NCBI RefSeq assembly: GCF_003111665.1 | Contig: NZ_CP022188.1 | Coordinates: 4,774,001-4,838,000, forward strand | Source: Parazoarcus communis | GTDB lineage: Bacteria > Pseudomonadota > Gammaproteobacteria > Burkholderiales > Rhodocyclaceae | DNA: 64,000 nt | Reading direction: 5' to 3' | Part shown: positions 9,160 to 45,473 of the stretch, piece after piece | Layout of the letters: every line of letters begins with the position of its first letter | Numbering within the stretch: the first letter of the stretch is position 1 | Translations under genes and position numbers: made by a program | The notes under the pieces: model-generated | The model's database searches: none | What the model saw: the letters and a program-made list of their open reading frames with translations, nothing else | Told to the model about the DNA's origin: nothing

Positions 9160-10429
9160 GAGAAGCCTTTCCGGGCGCATCGTCACGGCGTTTACGCTGA
9201 TGACGACGGTCGTCGCCGGCCTGTTCGCGCTGGCCATCGTGATCTTCATCAACCAGGCTGAGGTACAGCTGGTAGCAGAAGGCCTGAACCGCCAGCTCGA
9301 TGTCATCATCTCCACCGTCAGCGAAGGAGAGAAACCCTATCTGGGGCCGGAGCTGACGCTGTACCGCGCGCCCTCGGCAGACGACGCGACCCTGCCCGAC
9401 TGGCTGCGCAGCCTGACGCCCGGTTTCAGCGAGATCGAACACGACGACGTCGACTGGCATGTGCTGGCCCGCGACGAGGCCGGGAAGCGGTTCATCCTGG
9501 TTCTCGACCAGGTTGAGTTCGAAGAGCGTGAAAACCGCCTTTACATTGCGGCCGTCTCCGGCTTCGCGCTGAGCCTGCTGGCCGCATTCATCATCGGCAC
9601 GCTGACCGCAGGCAAGGTCATCGCCCCGGTCATCCGCCTGTCTGGCCAGGTGCGACATCGCGACCAGTTGCTGTCGCTGGCGCCACCACTTGCAGCCGAC
9701 TATCCGGCGGACGAGGTGGGACAACTGGCGGCGGCCTTCGACGACACCCTGAACCAGTTGCGCGAAGCGCTCGACCGCGAACGCCTGTTCACCAGCGACG
9801 TCAGCCACGAACTGCGCACGCCACTGATGGTCATCGCCAGCTCCTGCGAACTACTGCTCGAAACCCTGCCGGCAGAAGCCCGCGAAAGAAAGCAGATCAA
9901 ACGCATCCAGCATGCCAGCGAGGAGATGCGGGAGCTCGTCGAAACCTTCATGTGGCTCGCCCGTGGCGAACAGGCCACGCGACAACCCGCGTCGATGAAC
10001 ACACTGCAGCACATCGCCGAGGAGCAGTTCCGGCGCTGGCGCCCCGAAGCCGTGCAGCGCAACCTCACCTTGCAGCTGACGGTGGAAGTACCCGACGAAA
10101 CGCCCTACCCAACCCCGATGCTGCGCGCAGTCATTGCCAACCTGCTGCGCAACGCCCTGCACTACACCGACAAGGGCGGCGTTCAGCTCGTGCTGCAGGG
10201 CAAGCGCTTCCGGGTCATCGACAGTGGAGCCGGCATTCCGGTCTCGGAGCGGCTGAGCGTTTTCCGCCCCTTCGTGCGCGGGGGGCGCACGCGCGGAGAC
10301 GGCATCGGCATCGGCCTCTCGCTCGTTCAGCGCATCTGCACCCAACAGGGCTGGAAGATCGAACTCTCTGACGCTGCCGGTGGCGGTTGCGTATTTGAAG
10401 TCGACCTGGCGAACTTCACGAAAATTTGA
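9152..10429 (+). CDS. Sensor histidine kinase
   Basis: The 425-residue kinase has membrane helices near residues 13-34 and 133-152 around a periplasmic domain of about 100 residues. A HAMP-like linker leads to His219 in DVSHELRTPLMVIASS, then NLLRNALHYTDKGG (N box), DSGAGIP (G1) and GDGIGIGLSLVQRI (G2). Translation is coupled to the regulator at 8476. Its signal may concern the envelope given its neighbours, but that is inference. Confidence 0.92.
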   Translation: MAERSLSGRIVTAFTLMTTVVAGLFALAIVIFINQAEVQLVAEGLNRQLDVIISTVSEGEKPYLGPELTLYRAPSADDATLPDWLRSLTPGFSEIEHDDVDWHVLARDEAGKRFILVLDQVEFEERENRLYIAAVSGFALSLLAAFIIGTLTAGKVIAPVIRLSGQVRHRDQLLSLAPPLAADYPADEVGQLAAAFDDTLNQLREALDRERLFTSDVSHELRTPLMVIASSCELLLETLPAEARERKQIKRIQHASEEMRELVETFMWLARGEQATRQPASMNTLQHIAEEQFRRWRPEAVQRNLTLQLTVEVPDETPYPTPMLRAVIANLLRNALHYTDKGGVQLVLQGKRFRVIDSGAGIPVSERLSVFRPFVRGGRTRGDGIGIGLSLVQRICTQQGWKIELSDAAGGGCVFEVDLANFTKI

Positions 10430-40194: not shown

Positions 40195-40689
40195 ATGAGC
40201 GATTCCACTCCGTCCGCCCTGACCCATTTCGACGCCGAAGGCCAGGCCCACATGGTTGATGTCGGCGCCAAAACGGAAACCCGCCGGGTTGCCGTCGCGA
40301 CCGGCCGCATCCTGATGGAAGCCGCGACCTTCGACACCATTCAGAGCGGCACGGCAAAGAAGGGCGACGTGCTGGGCATCGCCCGCATCGCCGCCATCCA
40401 GGGCGCCAAACGCTGCAGCGACCTGATCCCGCTGTGCCACCCGATCCCGCTCACCCGCGTCGCCGTCGAGTTCGAAAGCGATCCCACCGCGCTCGCCATT
40501 CGCTGCACGGTGACGGCCGAAACCGTCGGCCGCACCGGCGTCGAGATGGAAGCGCTCACAGCGGTCAACGTCGCCCTGCTCACCATCTACGATATGTGCA
40601 AGGCGATGGATCGCGGCATGCGCATGGAAGGCATCCAGCTGATGGAAAAGCTCGGCGGCAAGTCGGGGCACTGGGTCGCGGAAGGCTAG
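40195..40689 (+). CDS. moaC: Cyclic pyranopterin monophosphate synthase (3' end supplied by an integrated island)
   Basis: MoaC makes cPMP, the first tricyclic intermediate of molybdenum/tungsten cofactor. The 164-residue protein is complete, with [34 protein letters not shown] and the catalytic-lysine segment [14 protein letters not shown]. Bases 40572-40676 are repeated at 45356-45460, and only after that repeat do the two ends differ (VAEG here, VSGS at the right copy). The present 3' end therefore seems to have come with the island, restoring the gene. Cofactor supply fits the downstream aor operon. Confidence 0.95.
40572..40676 (+). repeat. Left attachment-site repeat (attL, within moaC)
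   Basis: These 105 bp match 45356-45460 with two mismatches (40593 and 40598) and no gaps. The last 78 bp (40599-40676) are identical. The exchange point must lie inside that identical block. Confidence 0.88.
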
Positions 40690-40797
40690 ACTGTTGTTTC
40701 CGTTAGAATTTTCGGATCGCAGCCAACCACGAAGACCACGTCCGTCGCGATACAGAACTCTGACAATAGCTTGTAAATTCTGACGCACATTCGATCT

Positions 40798-40816
40798 TGT
40801 CCAATTCCTGTCCAAA
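40798..40816 (+). repeat. Candidate integrase arm-type site, left
   Basis: TGTCCAATTCCTGTCCAAA matches 45253-45271 at 17 of 19 positions in the same orientation, and each copy itself holds two TGTCCA units 11 bp apart. Position just inside each island end suggests arm-type binding. Confidence 0.5.
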
Positions 40817-40828
40817 TGGAGACGAGGA

Positions 40829-41380
40829 ATGGCATCGATACGTCGCAGAGGAACGAAGTGGCAGACCCGAGTTATCCGCAAGGGCTTCATTGATGAAGTG
40901 AAGACCTTCTCGACCCGCCAAGACGCCGAGCGGTGGGCGAGAACCATCGAAGTCGAGATGGAACGCGGTAGCTATGTCAGCAGAACTGAAGCCGAGACAA
41001 CCACGCTCCGAGAAATCATCAACCGCTACATCGTTGAGGTCGTCCCAACAAGGCGTGGTTGAAAGGAAGAGACTATCAGGCTTAGGGCGACTTGCCGCCG
41101 TCAAATTGCCGACCTGAGCATGGCCGCCCTCACACCGAAGCTTATCGCCGCTTACCGCGATGAACGACTAACCGAGGTCAAGCCCGCGACAGTCATTCGG
41201 GAACTCGCCTACCTATCGTCAATCGTCAACCACGCACGACGCGAATGGGGTATCAACATCACGAACCCCGTTACGTCGGTTCGACGCCCAGCGAGTCCAG
41301 AAGGACGCAATCGAGTACCTTCCACTGACGAAGAAATCGCGCTACTGGAAGCACTAGTGGCGACAGGAAGACGAAACCCC
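40829..41380 (+). pseudogene. Tyrosine-type integrase remnant (in-frame stop, catalytic domain lost)
   Basis: The N-terminus MASIRRRGTKWQTRVIRKG is an arm-binding domain and is followed by a core-binding domain (KPATVIRELAYLSSIVNHAR, then INITNPVTSVRRPASP). A TGA at 41060-41062 interrupts the frame after VVPTRRG, but the same frame continues with clear similarity, so this is a nonsense mutation rather than a frameshift. Similarity ends near RRNP (41380), where the WYL gene begins from the other side. The R-H-R-Y catalytic domain is missing. It cannot be active as an integrase. Confidence 0.85.
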
Positions 41381-41389
41381 CGGAGCAGG

Positions 41390-42400
41390 TCAGGGCTCCG
41401 GCGAAGCGTATTTTCGGGCCATTCCAGCGGCGACGTCCGACAATTCCTGTCGCAGGGCAGTTGGGCTCAGCACTTCGACCGCGTCGCCAAAGCCGAGCAG
41501 CCACCATCTGAGCTGCGGGGTATCGGCAACGGTTGCATGGACAAGCAGCGTGTCGCCCTCCTCGCTTACCTTCTGATCGGTAGACAGGGGCGTTTCGAGC
41601 AGATGCTCTCCGGCTTCGCGCGAGAAGCGCAGCGCGACTTGTATTAACTGGCCCTTGCCGAAAGCCCAGATACCCCGCTCGATACCGGCGTCGAGATCGT
41701 AGCCCGGTGGTGGAATGGCTGGTTCTTCGCGTAGCGTTGCCGCCTCAACGCGGTGCAGGGCGAAGTTCTGCGCATTGGGGTAGTCGCCAATCCGGGCATG
41801 CAGGTAGATCACCCAGCCACGCTGGATGATGGCCAGCGGGTGTATCCGGTAACTCTCCGCGGACTTACTGCCCTTCTTCCGGTAGCTGATGTCCAGTTGG
41901 CGTTCGTGCATCAACGCATCCGAGACGGTGCGCTGAATCTCTTGGGCGACTCCGGGCGGTATCAGTGGTTGGGCGGGCGGGACGGTGCGGACCTTGTCCA
42001 ACCAGGATCGCGTGGGCTTGGGTTGCTGCTCGGCAGACAGCCGGCTGCGGGCGGCCTGGAACTGGGGCTGAAGGTGTTCGACGATACCGGCCGGGAGCAG
42101 GCTGCGCAGGTGCTGTTCCGCTAGAACCCAAGTCAGTGCCTCGGCAACCGACAATCCCGGCAGGTCGAAACTACGGGCTTCACGCTGCCAACTCCAACCG
42201 TAAGGCTTGGCGCGCTCATCAACCACCAGCGGAAAGGCACTCGACAGGTCCATCAGGTCGCGCTGGACGGTCCTCTCCGTAGTGTCGAAGCCCTGCACGG
42301 CAAGCGCCTGCTTGAGTTCTTGAACGGTGATTTTCTGCGGATAGCGGGGTAAGAGCCTGAGAAGCTGCCAGTGGCGAAGGATGGTCTCTCGGATAGTCAC
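41390..42400 (-). CDS. WYL-domain transcriptional regulator
   Basis: The 336-residue protein has an N-terminal winged helix-turn-helix (residues about 5-60, VQELKQALAVQGFDTTERT) and a WYL domain (about 150-225) with LDISYRKKGSKSAESYRIHP and RGWVIYLHARIGDY. The C-terminal extension ends WLLGFGDAVEVLSP, as in BrxR/CapW-like and other WYL regulators. Such proteins often control phage-defence genes and sense nucleic-acid ligands. It faces the cargo genes across a 184-bp divergent region and has replaced the end of the integrase gene. Confidence 0.88.
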   Translation of the reverse strand: MTIRETILRHWQLLRLLPRYPQKITVQELKQALAVQGFDTTERTVQRDLMDLSSAFPLVVDERAKPYGWSWQREARSFDLPGLSVAEALTWVLAEQHLRSLLPAGIVEHLQPQFQAARSRLSAEQQPKPTRSWLDKVRTVPPAQPLIPPGVAQEIQRTVSDALMHERQLDISYRKKGSKSAESYRIHPLAIIQRGWVIYLHARIGDYPNAQNFALHRVEAATLREEPAIPPPGYDLDAGIERGIWAFGKGQLIQVALRFSREAGEHLLETPLSTDQKVSEEGDTLLVHATVADTPQLRWWLLGFGDAVEVLSPTALRQELSDVAAGMARKYASPEP

Positions 42401-42468
42401 TCGTGTCTGTCTCGCAATTGCACTGCTTGGCTCTTCTCAGCTCGCGGCATGCGATCTTCCGCACGCCC

Positions 42469-42487
42469 TGCGACAGGCTGCGTCGCA
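42469..42487. promoter_or_regulatory. Candidate WYL-regulator operator
   Basis: TGCGAC (42469-42474) and GTCGCA (42482-42487) form a perfect dyad with a 7-bp spacer between the divergent WYL gene and the cargo genes. It is the clearest dyad in that region. Confidence 0.4.
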
Positions 42488-42584
42488 CAACACCGTTATC
42501 CTACGTCTATCGCGTGTCGGGCTGACCATTCTCATGGTCTACGGCATGATGTCAATGCAATCAACTCATCACGGAGACATCTCC

Positions 42585-42779
42585 ATGAGTGGCTATGCGG
42601 TGAAGGTGCAAGGCGGTTCCGCGAAGGTGGTCGACATCAAGACTGGCGGGATCAAGCGGACTGTAAGCGGCGGCATCCTCTCGGCGCAGGTGCTTGGTGA
42701 CATGGTTCAGGTCACGGACAAGAACGGGCGCGTGAGGGTCATCGAGATCAAGACAGGGGCGGTCAAGCGCAGCCTCTGA
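42585..42779 (+). CDS. Small island protein with two internal repeats
   Basis: The 64-residue reading starts at 42585 with GGAG 8 nt upstream; the longer frame from 42381 overlaps the WYL start and is not credible. The protein has two similar units, AKVVDIKTGGIKRTV and VRVIEIKTGAVKRSL, each a probable beta-hairpin ending in a lysine/arginine-rich turn. No signal peptide or family recognised. It is the first cargo gene opposite the WYL regulator. Confidence 0.65.
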   Translation: MSGYAVKVQGGSAKVVDIKTGGIKRTVSGGILSAQVLGDMVQVTDKNGRVRVIEIKTGAVKRSL

Positions 42780-42805
42780 CGGCCAGCCAAATCCACAACA
42801 CTACG

Positions 42806-43270
42806 ATGGACCTCGAAATGCAAGCAAAGAGACGAAGGGATGCGGCGCTGCTCAACTACCCACACTCGCGCACCGACAGGTCGTTGCGGCCAAGATTCTG
42901 TCTTTACCGCAGCAATGGTGAACTGTTCTTCGTGAACCACACGGATGAGACGCTCGACTGGGTCGCGAACGGCTCGGTAGGCGGGTTCATCGACGCGGGT
43001 GGCGACCCGGTGGCGACCACCGATGCCCAGACCCACTATGAGCAGGTTCTGCCGGGGGAAGGTGTGTTGATCGACGCATTCGACGCTCAGTTCGACTGCG
43101 ATCTGTACATCGCTTCGACCATCACGGTCGCCAGCGCAGCGTCGGGCGTCCTGCAGTTTCAATGCGCAGACAAGGGAGGCGCCCGCGGACGCGTGCTGCT
43201 CTGGCATGACGGGTTCGTCTCGCCGCAGGTTCGTATGGAAGTTCTTACCGAAGACAGGAACAGCAAATGA
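42806..43270 (+). CDS. Island protein of unknown function
   Basis: A 154-residue soluble protein, mostly predicted beta (FCLYRSNGELFFVNHTDETL, then CDLYIASTITVASAASGVLQF). No membrane helix or recognised motif. An internal ATG at 42818 is an alternative start, since no clear ribosome site precedes either. Its stop overlaps the next start by 4 nt. Confidence 0.65.
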   Translation: MDLEMQAKRRRDAALLNYPHSRTDRSLRPRFCLYRSNGELFFVNHTDETLDWVANGSVGGFIDAGGDPVATTDAQTHYEQVLPGEGVLIDAFDAQFDCDLYIASTITVASAASGVLQFQCADKGGARGRVLLWHDGFVSPQVRMEVLTEDRNSK

Positions 43271-43533
43271 CGGCTGATCGCATCAGTGCAATTCTCTATC
43301 GCCACGACCCCGCGAACACGGGCTGCAGCGTGTGCGAGGACATGGAAGACGAATACGACCGCATCGCTGGCGCGATTGCGGAAATCCCGTTGGAGCAACT
43401 CACATTCGAAGCCTTTCGCGCCGTTCTCGTCGACGCGTTCTTTGAAGACGCGCTCTCTGACGAGGATTTAAGAAAGAGCCATGCCGAGATCGTCGGCGTT
43501 GGGGTTTGGCCATCAATCAAGAAACAAGCATAA
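43267..43533 (+). CDS. Small acidic island protein of unknown function
   Basis: The 88-residue protein has [20 protein letters not shown] near its start, with a CxxC pair, and many acidic residues. It is coupled to the previous gene by an ATGA overlap and lies 11 nt before the phosphoesterase gene. No family recognised. Confidence 0.6.
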
Positions 43534-43544
43534 CGGGAGCACTC

Positions 43545-44498
43545 ATGGCGGAAGTTGCTGGGTACGACGTGATTGGAGACATTCATGGTCACGCCGATGA
43601 ACTGGAAGCACTGCTGAGAAAGCTGGACTACCGCAAGCAGGGTGGAACTTGGCGTCATCCTGAACGCACGGCTGTGTTCGTCGGCGACCTTATCGACCGA
43701 GGGCCGAAGCAACTGGAGGTCGTCGACATCGTTCGCAGGATGGTCGAGGAAGGCCACGCAAAGGCCACGATGGGAAATCATGAGTTCAACGCCATCGCGT
43801 GGCGAACGCTCGACGAGCATGGCAGCCCCCTTCGCGAGCACTCCAAGAAGAACGAAGATCAGCACGCCGCCTTTCTTGCTGCAGTTGATGGAAATCCGGA
43901 ACTACACAAGGACGTTGTCGACTGGTTTCTGACCCTGCCGCTGTGGCTCGAACTGGACGGGATCAATGTGATTCACGCCTGCTGGCACACCGGGTATATG
44001 GACCGCTTCGCAGACCGTCTCGCGCCGGGGAATCGCCTGACACCAGAATTGATGAACGAAGCAGCGAGAAAACCTGCTCCAGGTGGCGAGGAAACCTTGT
44101 TCAATGCCATAGAAGTGTGGCTCAAAGGCCTTGAAGCTCCGCTGCCCGTCGGCGAAAAGTTCAATGACAAGGATGGCCATCCGCGGACAGAGGTGCGCGT
44201 TCGGTGGTGGGATGAAGGCGCAACCCTATATCCCGAGGCGGCGATGATAGAAGAACACATCCGCGCGCGGCTGCCTGCGGTCGAGATTCCGGAAGCCGCT
44301 CGATACCGCTATGAGCCACAGAGACCAGTCTTCTTCGGCCACTACTGGATGAGTGGCCACCCGTCCATTCAGAGCACTCTCGCGGCCTGTACAGACTTTT
44401 CTGTGGCCAAACAGGGCAAGTTGGTGGCCTACCGCTGGAATGGCGAGCAGAAACTCTCGAACGAAGGCTTCCACTACGTGCAAGACGGGCGGACTTGA
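43545..44498 (+). CDS. Calcineurin-like metallophosphoesterase
   Basis: The 317-residue protein has the complete metal-site series GDIHGH (residues 11-16), VGDLIDRGP (46-54), GNHEFN (77-82) and HACWHTG, with a late FFGHYW that supplies the last histidines. The pattern is nearest to PrpE/bis(5'-nucleosyl)-tetraphosphatase-like enzymes, which act on dinucleotides or phosphoproteins. The ATG at 43545 follows GGGAG. It is the only island cargo gene with a readable enzyme activity and may be its effector. Confidence 0.85.
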
Positions 44499-44788
44499 AT
44501 GGAGGTATTGCTAAGGCCAAATCAAAGAAGGGGAACGCCCCCACAGGGCTAGCCGCAAACTGTCTCGACTGTCCTAATCACCGGGCAATCCCCGACCCGG
44601 AGCCGGAAGACTGGTGCTTTGCCACTGACCTTGCGGTGGTATGGACTAAGGTGCAGAACCCAGTGCAAGACCCTGAATCTCGCTGGCTCTCGGACCGGAA
44701 CCCCTATCGGTGCGTCGCACAGTCATGCCGGCCCCACCATTTACACGAGGACACGAACAGGCCCGGTTGGTGTCCGTTGCTGAATTGA
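44495..44788 (+). CDS. Cysteine-rich small island protein
   Basis: The 97-residue reading uses a TTG start overlapping the phosphoesterase stop (TTGA). Cysteines lie in [26 protein letters not shown] and GWCPLLN, a spacing compatible with one or two zinc sites. No family recognised. The unusual start lowers confidence, but the frame shows no stop and the pattern looks like protein. Confidence 0.5.
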
Positions 44789-44804
44789 GCCCACTCATCC
44801 AACC

Positions 44805-45146
44805 ATGCCTCGGAAAAATCTGCCCTACCTCGATCAAGAGCGTCTGAACTACATCTTTGAAGCGGTCTACGACCCTCTGCCTGAGAACGCGGCAGAGACG
44901 CTCTACGGCGATGACAAGATGGCGTCTCTGCTGTGCGCGCTGAAGTCCGCGCAGGGTTTCAACCATCGCTTCCGTTGGGACGATACCTGCGACCTCTTCC
45001 ACCAGTTCGACCCGATTCTTAATTTCGCGCACCACACGGAGGGCACGACCCTTTGGTTAGCGATGATTCTCGCCATTCAAGAGCTTTACGGGTTCTCGGA
45101 CGAGAAGATGCGCAATCTGATGAAGATCATGACGATAAGAAAATGA
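44805..45146 (+). CDS. Small helical island protein of unknown function
   Basis: A 113-residue protein with mixed aromatic and acidic residues (YLDQERLNYIFEAVYDPL, then TTLWLAMILAIQELYGFSD). It lies 16 nt after the cysteine-rich gene and is the last cargo gene. No membrane segment is certain; the LWLAMILAI stretch is short. Confidence 0.6.
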   Translation: MPRKNLPYLDQERLNYIFEAVYDPLPENAAETLYGDDKMASLLCALKSAQGFNHRFRWDDTCDLFHQFDPILNFAHHTEGTTLWLAMILAIQELYGFSDEKMRNLMKIMTIRK

Positions 45147-45355
45147 TTTTTATCATGTTTTCGACCCTCACGCGCCTAGCATTGATCGATGCGTAATAGA
45201 TGCACTCTCCGAACCGCCATAATGTCGAGTGCGGCGCTGGACAAGGGGTCGCTGTCCATTCCCTGTCCAAACGCTGTTCAAATTGACCAACCGAATTGGG
45301 CGAAATCGAAAGAAGCGCAACAAACTAAGCGATTGTTATAAAACAACATTAGCAC
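45147..45355. other. Right non-coding end of the island
   Basis: This stretch between the last cargo gene and the moaC remnant is AT-richer than the chromosome. It contains the 19-bp repeat at 45253-45271 but no credible gene; a 65-codon frame crossing it has no supporting features. Confidence 0.6.
45253..45271 (+). repeat. Candidate integrase arm-type site, right
   Basis: TGTCCATTCCCTGTCCAAA matches the left copy at 40798-40816 at 17 of 19 positions. It lies 85 bp inside the right moaC repeat. Confidence 0.5.
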
Positions 45356-45473
45356 CGCCCTGCTCACCATCTACGACATGTACAAGGCGATGGATCGCGG
45401 CATGCGCATGGAAGGCATCCAGCTGATGGAAAAGCTCGGCGGCAAGTCGGGGCACTGGGTTTCTGGCAGCTGA
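45356..45473 (+). pseudogene. moaC 3' fragment (right attachment site, displaced original end)
   Basis: The first 105 bp repeat 40572-40676 (two mismatches), and the frame then continues in-frame with VSGS and a TGA at 45471-45473. It encodes the last 39 residues of MoaC with no start or upstream part. It is best read as attR, with the downstream bases being the original chromosomal end of moaC. Confidence 0.88.

Follow-up and report, generated by a model that had tools for sequence, protein, structure and literature searches.

How did the 3′ end of moaC come to be present twice, about 4.8 kb apart, in a 64,000-nucleotide stretch of Parazoarcus communis DNA (contig NZ_CP022188.1, positions 4,774,001 to 4,838,000; referred to as the window)? 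We are very confident that a small integrative island, of a moaC-specific tyrosine-integrase family, is inserted in the 3′ end of moaC. This confidence applies to the insertion and to the origin of the two ends; the exact crossover is judged separately below.

The duplicated moaC end and the empty site

A direct-repeat search of the window returned two copies of 105 nt, at 40572–40676 and 45356–45460 on the forward strand, with a spacing of 4784 nt and 98% identity. The copies differ by two mismatches (T at 40593 against C at 45377; G at 40598 against A at 45382) without a gap, and agree throughout the final 78 bp. Within the same 10 kb, no other direct repeat is longer than 44 nt (70% identity), which puts the 105-bp repeat far above chance. 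A reading of the window made earlier from its letters alone (the sequence-only reading) had described this repeat in the same terms and had pointed out two different ends; the search bears out both. The left copy reads VAEG-stop, while the right copy keeps the MoaC frame to VSGS-stop. The G+C content is 57.9% between the repeat copies, compared with 64.1% and 64.7% outside, and ARAGORN found no tRNA gene in the window. A 105-bp duplication of the moaC 3′ end flanking 4.8 kb of lower-G+C DNA is confirmed. moaC in its present form (40195–40689, forward strand; 164 aa; Pfam MoaC PF01967, E=2.5e-56, and alignment with the empty-site genome G001) ends in VAEG, and its part to the right of about 40600 was probably supplied by the element.

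MoaC was searched for in 61 genomes. It was matched in 59 of them, and a second, C-terminal piece was present only in the window's genome and in G026. G001, the nearest relative and a member of the same genus, has a single uninterrupted moaC that ends in VSGS. It is collinear with the window up to 40676 on the left flank (94.0% over 1982 bp) and from 45356 on the right flank (97.5% over 1609 bp). The far copy and its flank show zero differences from G001 from 45383 onward in the stretch shown; the displaced moaC 3′ end (45385–45473, forward strand, VSGS-stop) equals that of G001 where shown, at 75/75 positions and 45/45 in the tail. Since the empty site ends in VSGS and is collinear with both flanks, the island brought VAEG, and VSGS is the end that moaC had originally. 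The sequence-only reading had held that the island brings a substitute end and moves the original one to the far side, and had called for this very comparison, which supports it. Relatives carrying both ends without an island, or VAEG as the native end everywhere, were not encountered: G001 has VSGS, and other native ends differ again (e.g. VAGA, VAQA, VAPA). When the 40-aa moaC end was used for a class-wide search, single matches were obtained in 44 of 369 genomes besides the window's.

The integrase remnant and its relatives at moaC

Two marks of an integrative island are thus seen here, an uninterrupted target in a close relative and a direct repeat of the target-gene end at both borders (105 bp, 2 mismatches). 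A third, an integrase gene at one border, takes the form of a remnant of a tyrosine recombinase adjoining the left repeat copy (40829–41386, forward strand), and is intact only in relatives. The remnant corresponds to residues 1–186 of 327 and is 59% identical over that length to the intact integrase beside moaC in G026, with one in-frame TGA (41060–41062); PF24624 (Int_N) was matched in its second piece (E=1.3e-7). The catalytic domain (PF00589) of the G026 integrase lies at residues 187–320, and is therefore absent from the remnant. A gene for a WYL regulator, on the opposite strand, ends at 41390, just past the last integrase homology. A functional integrase with its catalytic domain, which would mark an active island and not a remnant, is lacking, the PF00589 region being absent and the reading frame carrying one stop. 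Because its integrase has lost the catalytic domain, the island would be unable to leave unaided and is probably no longer self-mobile. The window island is a decayed remnant with a broken integrase, and the first reading has to be corrected in this respect.

Integrases related to the remnant were found at E<=1e-30 in 99 of 297 genomes of a family-wide sample. Eight of the ten genomes with the best integrase matches had two moaC matches (G026, G603, G492, G639, G556, G497, G532, G679); G482 and G018 had one each, and there the integrase is not moaC-linked. For seven of the eight, the integrase comes after the moaC end and the second end lies beyond it or on another contig. The contig of G556 starts within the moaC end, and the far moaC end of G026 is on another contig. 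Among 80 loci from named genomes, 26 had moaC matches beside the integrase, one of them (L073) being G026 again, and in four (L091, L095, L097, L099) the contig starts within the moaC end. The moaC-linked loci include Ralstonia soli, Cupriavidus pauculus and basilensis, Paraburkholderia lacunae, saeva and elongata, and also Thiomonas, Methylotenera, Polaromonas, Limnohabitans and Massilia. The two moaC ends are spaced by about 3 to 27 kb. The sequence-only reading had suggested a search for the same integrase next to moaC elsewhere, and it is found there, with a second moaC end further on.

The integrases were placed on a tree of 109 rows (107 different), made by a quick method with Shimodaira–Hasegawa-like approximate likelihood ratio test (SH-aLRT) values and no bootstrap; the test for upstream moaC covered 141 integrase loci less one (L127, dropped). 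The moaC-linked rows number 34 of 109 (33 loci and the window remnant), and all fall in one set of 42 rows with an SH-aLRT of 97. The moaC-linked label needs 3 changes on the tree, against a mean of 29 when shuffled. The window remnant belongs, as expected of a family member, to a moaC set of 7 rows together with integrases of Ralstonia, Cupriavidus and Paraburkholderia (SH-aLRT 98). moaC had been called an unusual integration target; it is instead a recurrent target of one integrase clade and not a rare accident.

Integrases of phages and plasmids reached less than 60% identity only, and the island DNA had no near match among plasmids. moaC was found upstream in none of the 30 viral integrase loci tested (of 80), 12 of which start less than 150 bp from the contig end and are uninformative.

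Second moaC pieces were also counted in single genera. Of 17 genomes in the genus of G603, 2 had a second C-terminal piece. It was clear in 3 of 30 for the genus of G821 (G1062, G1063, G1077), with three more matches weak or odd (G1055, G1072, G1074), and in 7 of 58 for the genus of G915, with one more weak. An integrase lay within 1.5 kb after moaC in 5 of 29 and 6 of 29 loaded loci of the latter two genera, respectively; the comparisons with genus relatives took in 29 of the 30 and 29 of the 58 genomes. The order-wide search also gave some genomes with two moaC matches, among the matches listed. The piece in G1072 (C60:107543-107848; L356) is longer, comprising residues 62–161 with one TGA, and is about 16 kb from moaC.

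An alternative origin involves no integrase: the moaC end could have been duplicated as a segment, or a plasmid with a piece of moaC could have entered by homologous recombination. Identity over 105 bp is more than a site-specific core would usually have and could suffice for homologous recombination, and in G1102 a second, weak moaC piece lies about 1 kb off, with no integrase within 1.5 kb. However, the remnant adjoins the repeat, the same layout occurs with intact integrases in many genera, and the elements have common end motifs. We consider such an origin scarcely credible.

The motifs just mentioned were seen at the element ends, the near copy of a moaC end being the one beside the integrase (left in the window) and the far copy the other. 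In the window's part of the tree, a motif near TAAGNNRTTGTTT occurs at the near-copy stop and about 40 bp left of a 7-bp core in the far copy (see below); other elements have it in weaker form or not at all, and it is missing from some subgroups. In the window, TAGACTGTTGTTT (40687–40699, forward strand) starts at the stop codon, at the same offset as in relatives, and TAAGCGATTGTTA (45326–45338, forward strand) lies about 40 bp left of the right core, at the offset of L081, L082, L087 and L089. They have 2 mismatches and 1 mismatch to TAAGNNRTTGTTT, compared with base-shuffled means of 4.22 and 3.52, for a motif read by eye from these same ends and shuffles of single bases only. The island thus has the motif of its relatives at both ends, with the same reservation as to the choice by eye, and this motif may be an arm site.

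With both attachment ends and motifs largely intact, the island might still be mobile if driven in trans by another recombinase or a related moaC element, and the genome has 14 first-look integrase candidates. Seven of these were scored, and the only match at E<=1e-30 among them was the remnant; moreover, the right core has one different base. Mobility in trans is improbable in our judgement.

Position of the crossover

Near and far copies were aligned for 18 elements and for 9 more, and after removal of G1102 (no integrase, poor alignment) 26 good pairs were left; G1138 has no integrase within 1.5 kb. Within the D-M-C-K codons, near and far copies share a 7-bp segment, ATGTGCA (L088 has ATGTGTA), in 17 of the 18 and 8 of the 9 pairs. 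The exceptions are G1102 and the window, whose far copy is one base off. According to PMC10111431, 7 bp is the usual length of the strand-exchange segment. The crossover segment of the window is proposed to be ATGTGCA at 40594–40600 in the left copy and ATGTACA at 45378–45384 in the right copy (forward strand). More telling than this agreement is where the homology begins on the left: the far copy starts to resemble moaC 0–10 bp left of this core in 12 of the 26 good pairs, while to the right of the core the copies agree at 56 to 75 of 75 positions.

The sequence of events is best explained as follows. The element carries its own copy of the moaC end. Recombination, presumably performed by the integrase, gave the interrupted moaC the substitute end VAEG, and the original end VSGS was left on the far side without a gene start; with a crossover at or next to ATGTGCA, roughly the last 29 codons would come from the element. 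Over the 26 pairs, the 75 bp right of the core contain 23 near/far differences at first, 17 at second and 105 at third codon positions. If the crossover is as proposed, the element encodes everything beyond DMCK and must therefore keep a good moaC end, which fits this third-position pattern. Compared with E. coli MoaC (1ekr), window MoaC is offset by five residues, and the DMCK codons correspond to E. coli residues 128–131. Residues 128, 131 and 147 presumably matter for catalysis; nothing relevant on MoaC residues was found in the open-licence literature.

We think it probable that the crossover lies at or next to ATGTGCA with the element supplying about the last 29 codons, although the comparisons with native genes gave mixed results. 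The sequence-only reading had proposed that the attachment site of the element carries more of moaC than the identical 78-bp block, this extra lying to the left. On the present evidence, which is mixed, most of the moaC sequence of the element would lie right of the core, rebuilding the gene there, and the crossover is more likely at 40594–40600 / 45378–45384, at the left of the repeat, than in the 78-bp block.

Several observations weigh against this account, and some of them would be explained if the same island and integrase had recombined near the 3′ end of the repeat, the island supplying only the last codons (VAEG) and the stop. The recombination event itself is inferred. moaC genes in general conserve the core: among 139 loci, which include element-bearing or duplicate genomes, 90% of random native pairs are the same at this place, and the agreement over 7 bp is therefore weak alone. 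In 9 of the 26 good pairs the 75 bp right of the core show no near/far difference (the window, L065, L068, L069, L070, L088, G1077, G1098, G1110), as a right-hand crossover would have it. The near end of the window right of the core equals the G001 end at 75/75 positions, which calls for the assumption of gene conversion or of a very closely related donor. When 30 natives of the order were compared, the near copy was closer in 6 of 10 usable elements (L075, L082, L087, L089, L090, L101), again as expected of a right-hand crossover, and the far copy in 4 (L064, L081, L084, L093); L032/31 is outside this count of ten, and the comparison is biased, as the far copy drifts freely after insertion. 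A clear case is L075, for which the relatives of its genus favoured the near copy by 20 to 0, with 4 ties. Finally, the integrase of G492 adjoins a moaC end away from the full gene. It follows a bare moaC end (residues 131–163), and the full moaC is on another contig with no integrase nearby. To the left of the bare end there is non-moaC DNA to within a few bases of the core, and then another integrase-like frame; the arrangement looks like an unused attachment site of an element (attP) or a junction of two elements. The bare-end fragment (L071; G492:C22) is about 960 bp from the contig end.

A right-hand crossover, however, leaves unexplained the start of far-copy homology 0–10 bp left of the core in the 12 pairs, and the near/far differences fall mainly on third codon positions, as in a segment used as protein. 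L081 also points to the left: with its nearest empty locus (L317) the far copy agrees at 72/75 positions and the near copy at 66/75, and against all empties of the genus the far copy is favoured by 16 to 4, with 3 ties. We therefore regard a crossover near the 3′ end of the repeat as rather unlikely, and retain the one at or next to ATGTGCA.

The L075 locus deserves a separate comment. Compared with the empty locus L290, its moaC differs at 48 of 393 bp left of the core but at none of the 89 bp to the right; L290 was the best match among 23 other genomes in an ungapped comparison, with five gapped alignments left out. The near end is the same as the empty locus of another species from 21 bp left of the core almost to the stop, and may have come with the element. 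We tentatively suggest, as a possibility short of an even chance, that the elements carry interchangeable moaC ends that overwrite about 29 codons, and that excision or gene conversion leaves a version behind, making moaC a mosaic across species. The mismatches of L075, confined to the left of the core, fit this suggestion.

Other targets, known systems and cargo

Eight rows of the 42-row set are not moaC-linked. In five of these (L092, L094, L096, L098, L100) the integrase is preceded by pntB, identified in L098 by PF02233 (E=1.5e-189) and in the other four by 71–91% identity to that of L098. A second C-terminal pntB piece was found in four of the five genomes, three times on another contig and once 13.7 kb downstream (E=0.0085). 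All four near/far pairs are plainly duplicated in DNA, and the integrase follows each near copy. Since the pntB rows are nested in the moaC set and have duplicated pntB ends, the integrase lineage appears to have changed its target from moaC to pntB. The accessible portion of PMC3091717 places pntB among the genes bordering plastic regions in Photorhabdus and Xenorhabdus. The remaining three of the eight rows are L041, L108 and L083. At L083, a 101-bp direct repeat (99%; 9821–9921) lies beside a related integrase, with the second copy about 6.4 kb beyond the integrase; this site is neither moaC nor any ARAGORN tRNA gene. Two metagenome-assembled genomes (L088, L094), labelled Chitinophaga pinensis and Bordetella parapertussis, have moaC or pntB elements like those of other Betaproteobacteria, and their labels or bins may be wrong.

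Islands mapped by TIGER/Islander lie within protein-coding sequences in 43.4% of cases; 68% are of the tyrosine type, 58% are not categorised and the size distribution peaks at 10 kb (PMC12424338). The moaC elements are like these in being integrase-bearing islands within protein genes, and unlike the cases stated there in that moaC is not named in the text of that paper, although moaC islands may sit unremarked in its data. As far as the available part of PMC10111431 describes them, phage satellites of the phage-inducible chromosomal island (PICI) type resemble the moaC elements in being small, in having an integrase clade that keeps to one type of bacterial attachment site (attB) and, as regards several moaC-element relatives, in primase and replication genes. 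They differ in that the window island has no primase, virion or packaging match and that it targets a housekeeping gene instead of a gene of a prophage. A further genomic island adjoining a moaC in a betaproteobacterium is CMGI-A of Cupriavidus metallidurans, for which moaC (Rmet_4428) is tabulated as a flanking gene in the portion of PMC7019866 available. CMGI-A, unlike the window island, is 87 kb long with ISRme1 at one extremity (PMC3384475, likewise in part), and neither an attachment site nor a duplicated end is mentioned in the available portions of these two papers. Passages of PMC12884075, PMC5406005, PMC3120642, PMC6108181 and PMC6650914 have no bearing on the site. Our searches of the open-licence literature yielded no account of moaC as an attachment site for an integrase.

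Taken by itself, the island is of a known kind and decayed; what merits further attention is the recurrence of the moaC site and the nested switch to pntB. They add a recurrent chromosomal attachment site within the codons of a conserved cofactor enzyme, used by one integrase clade in many Betaproteobacteria. The apparent move from moaC to pntB would be a natural series for how integrases change targets, and the evolution of target choice becomes testable in a defined clade, which also offers candidate integrases for insertion at moaC. There is a warning as well: both the annotated ends of moaC genes and stray pieces of moaC can derive from elements.

The window island has seven cargo ORFs (open reading frames). 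The WYL–WCX regulator (336 aa; 41390–42400, reverse strand) was matched by Pfam WCX (1.2e-17) and WYL (2e-11) and by PADLOC WYL (1.9e-28); to our knowledge, WYL regulators are not specific to defence. On the forward strand there is a calcineurin-like metallophosphoesterase of 317 aa (43545–44498; Pfam Metallophos 3.5e-13, PHROG NinI-like phosphatase 3.8e-19), which is under the NCBIfam cut-offs for Pnkp, PrpE and ApaH. Four further forward-strand ORFs, of 154 aa (42806–43270), 88 aa (43267–43533), 97 aa (44495–44788) and 113 aa (44805–45146), fell in no family of Pfam, PADLOC, NCBIfam or PHROGs. A small ORF of 64 aa (42585–42779, forward strand), of unknown function, was taken from the ORF reading and had sub-threshold Pfam matches only; it shows an internal repeat pattern (VDIKTGGIKR, IEIKTGAVKR).

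Phage satellites often carry primase or replication genes. By Pfam, NCBIfam and PHROGs, none of the seven cargo ORFs is a relaxase/transfer or virion gene, as would indicate an integrative and conjugative element or a prophage, and none is a replication initiator or primase, as would indicate a PICI. Domains of primases or replication helicases were matched by Pfam and PHROGs in the relatives L065, L069, L070, L084 and L089. Altogether, the comparison with PADLOC and PHROGs took in 55 cargo ORFs of 170 aa or more, drawn from 15 relatives, and that with Pfam 20 of them. The integrase and its site are the shared part of the elements; the cargo is exchangeable and varies between elements. PADLOC matched PD-Lambda-2 once and dCTPase once among the 55 proteins, and both matches probably belong to L075, as assigned by its Pfam domains. 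This moaC element of Cupriavidus pauculus (L075:11715-16199) carries an M78 peptidase, a Beta protein and a deaminase domain.

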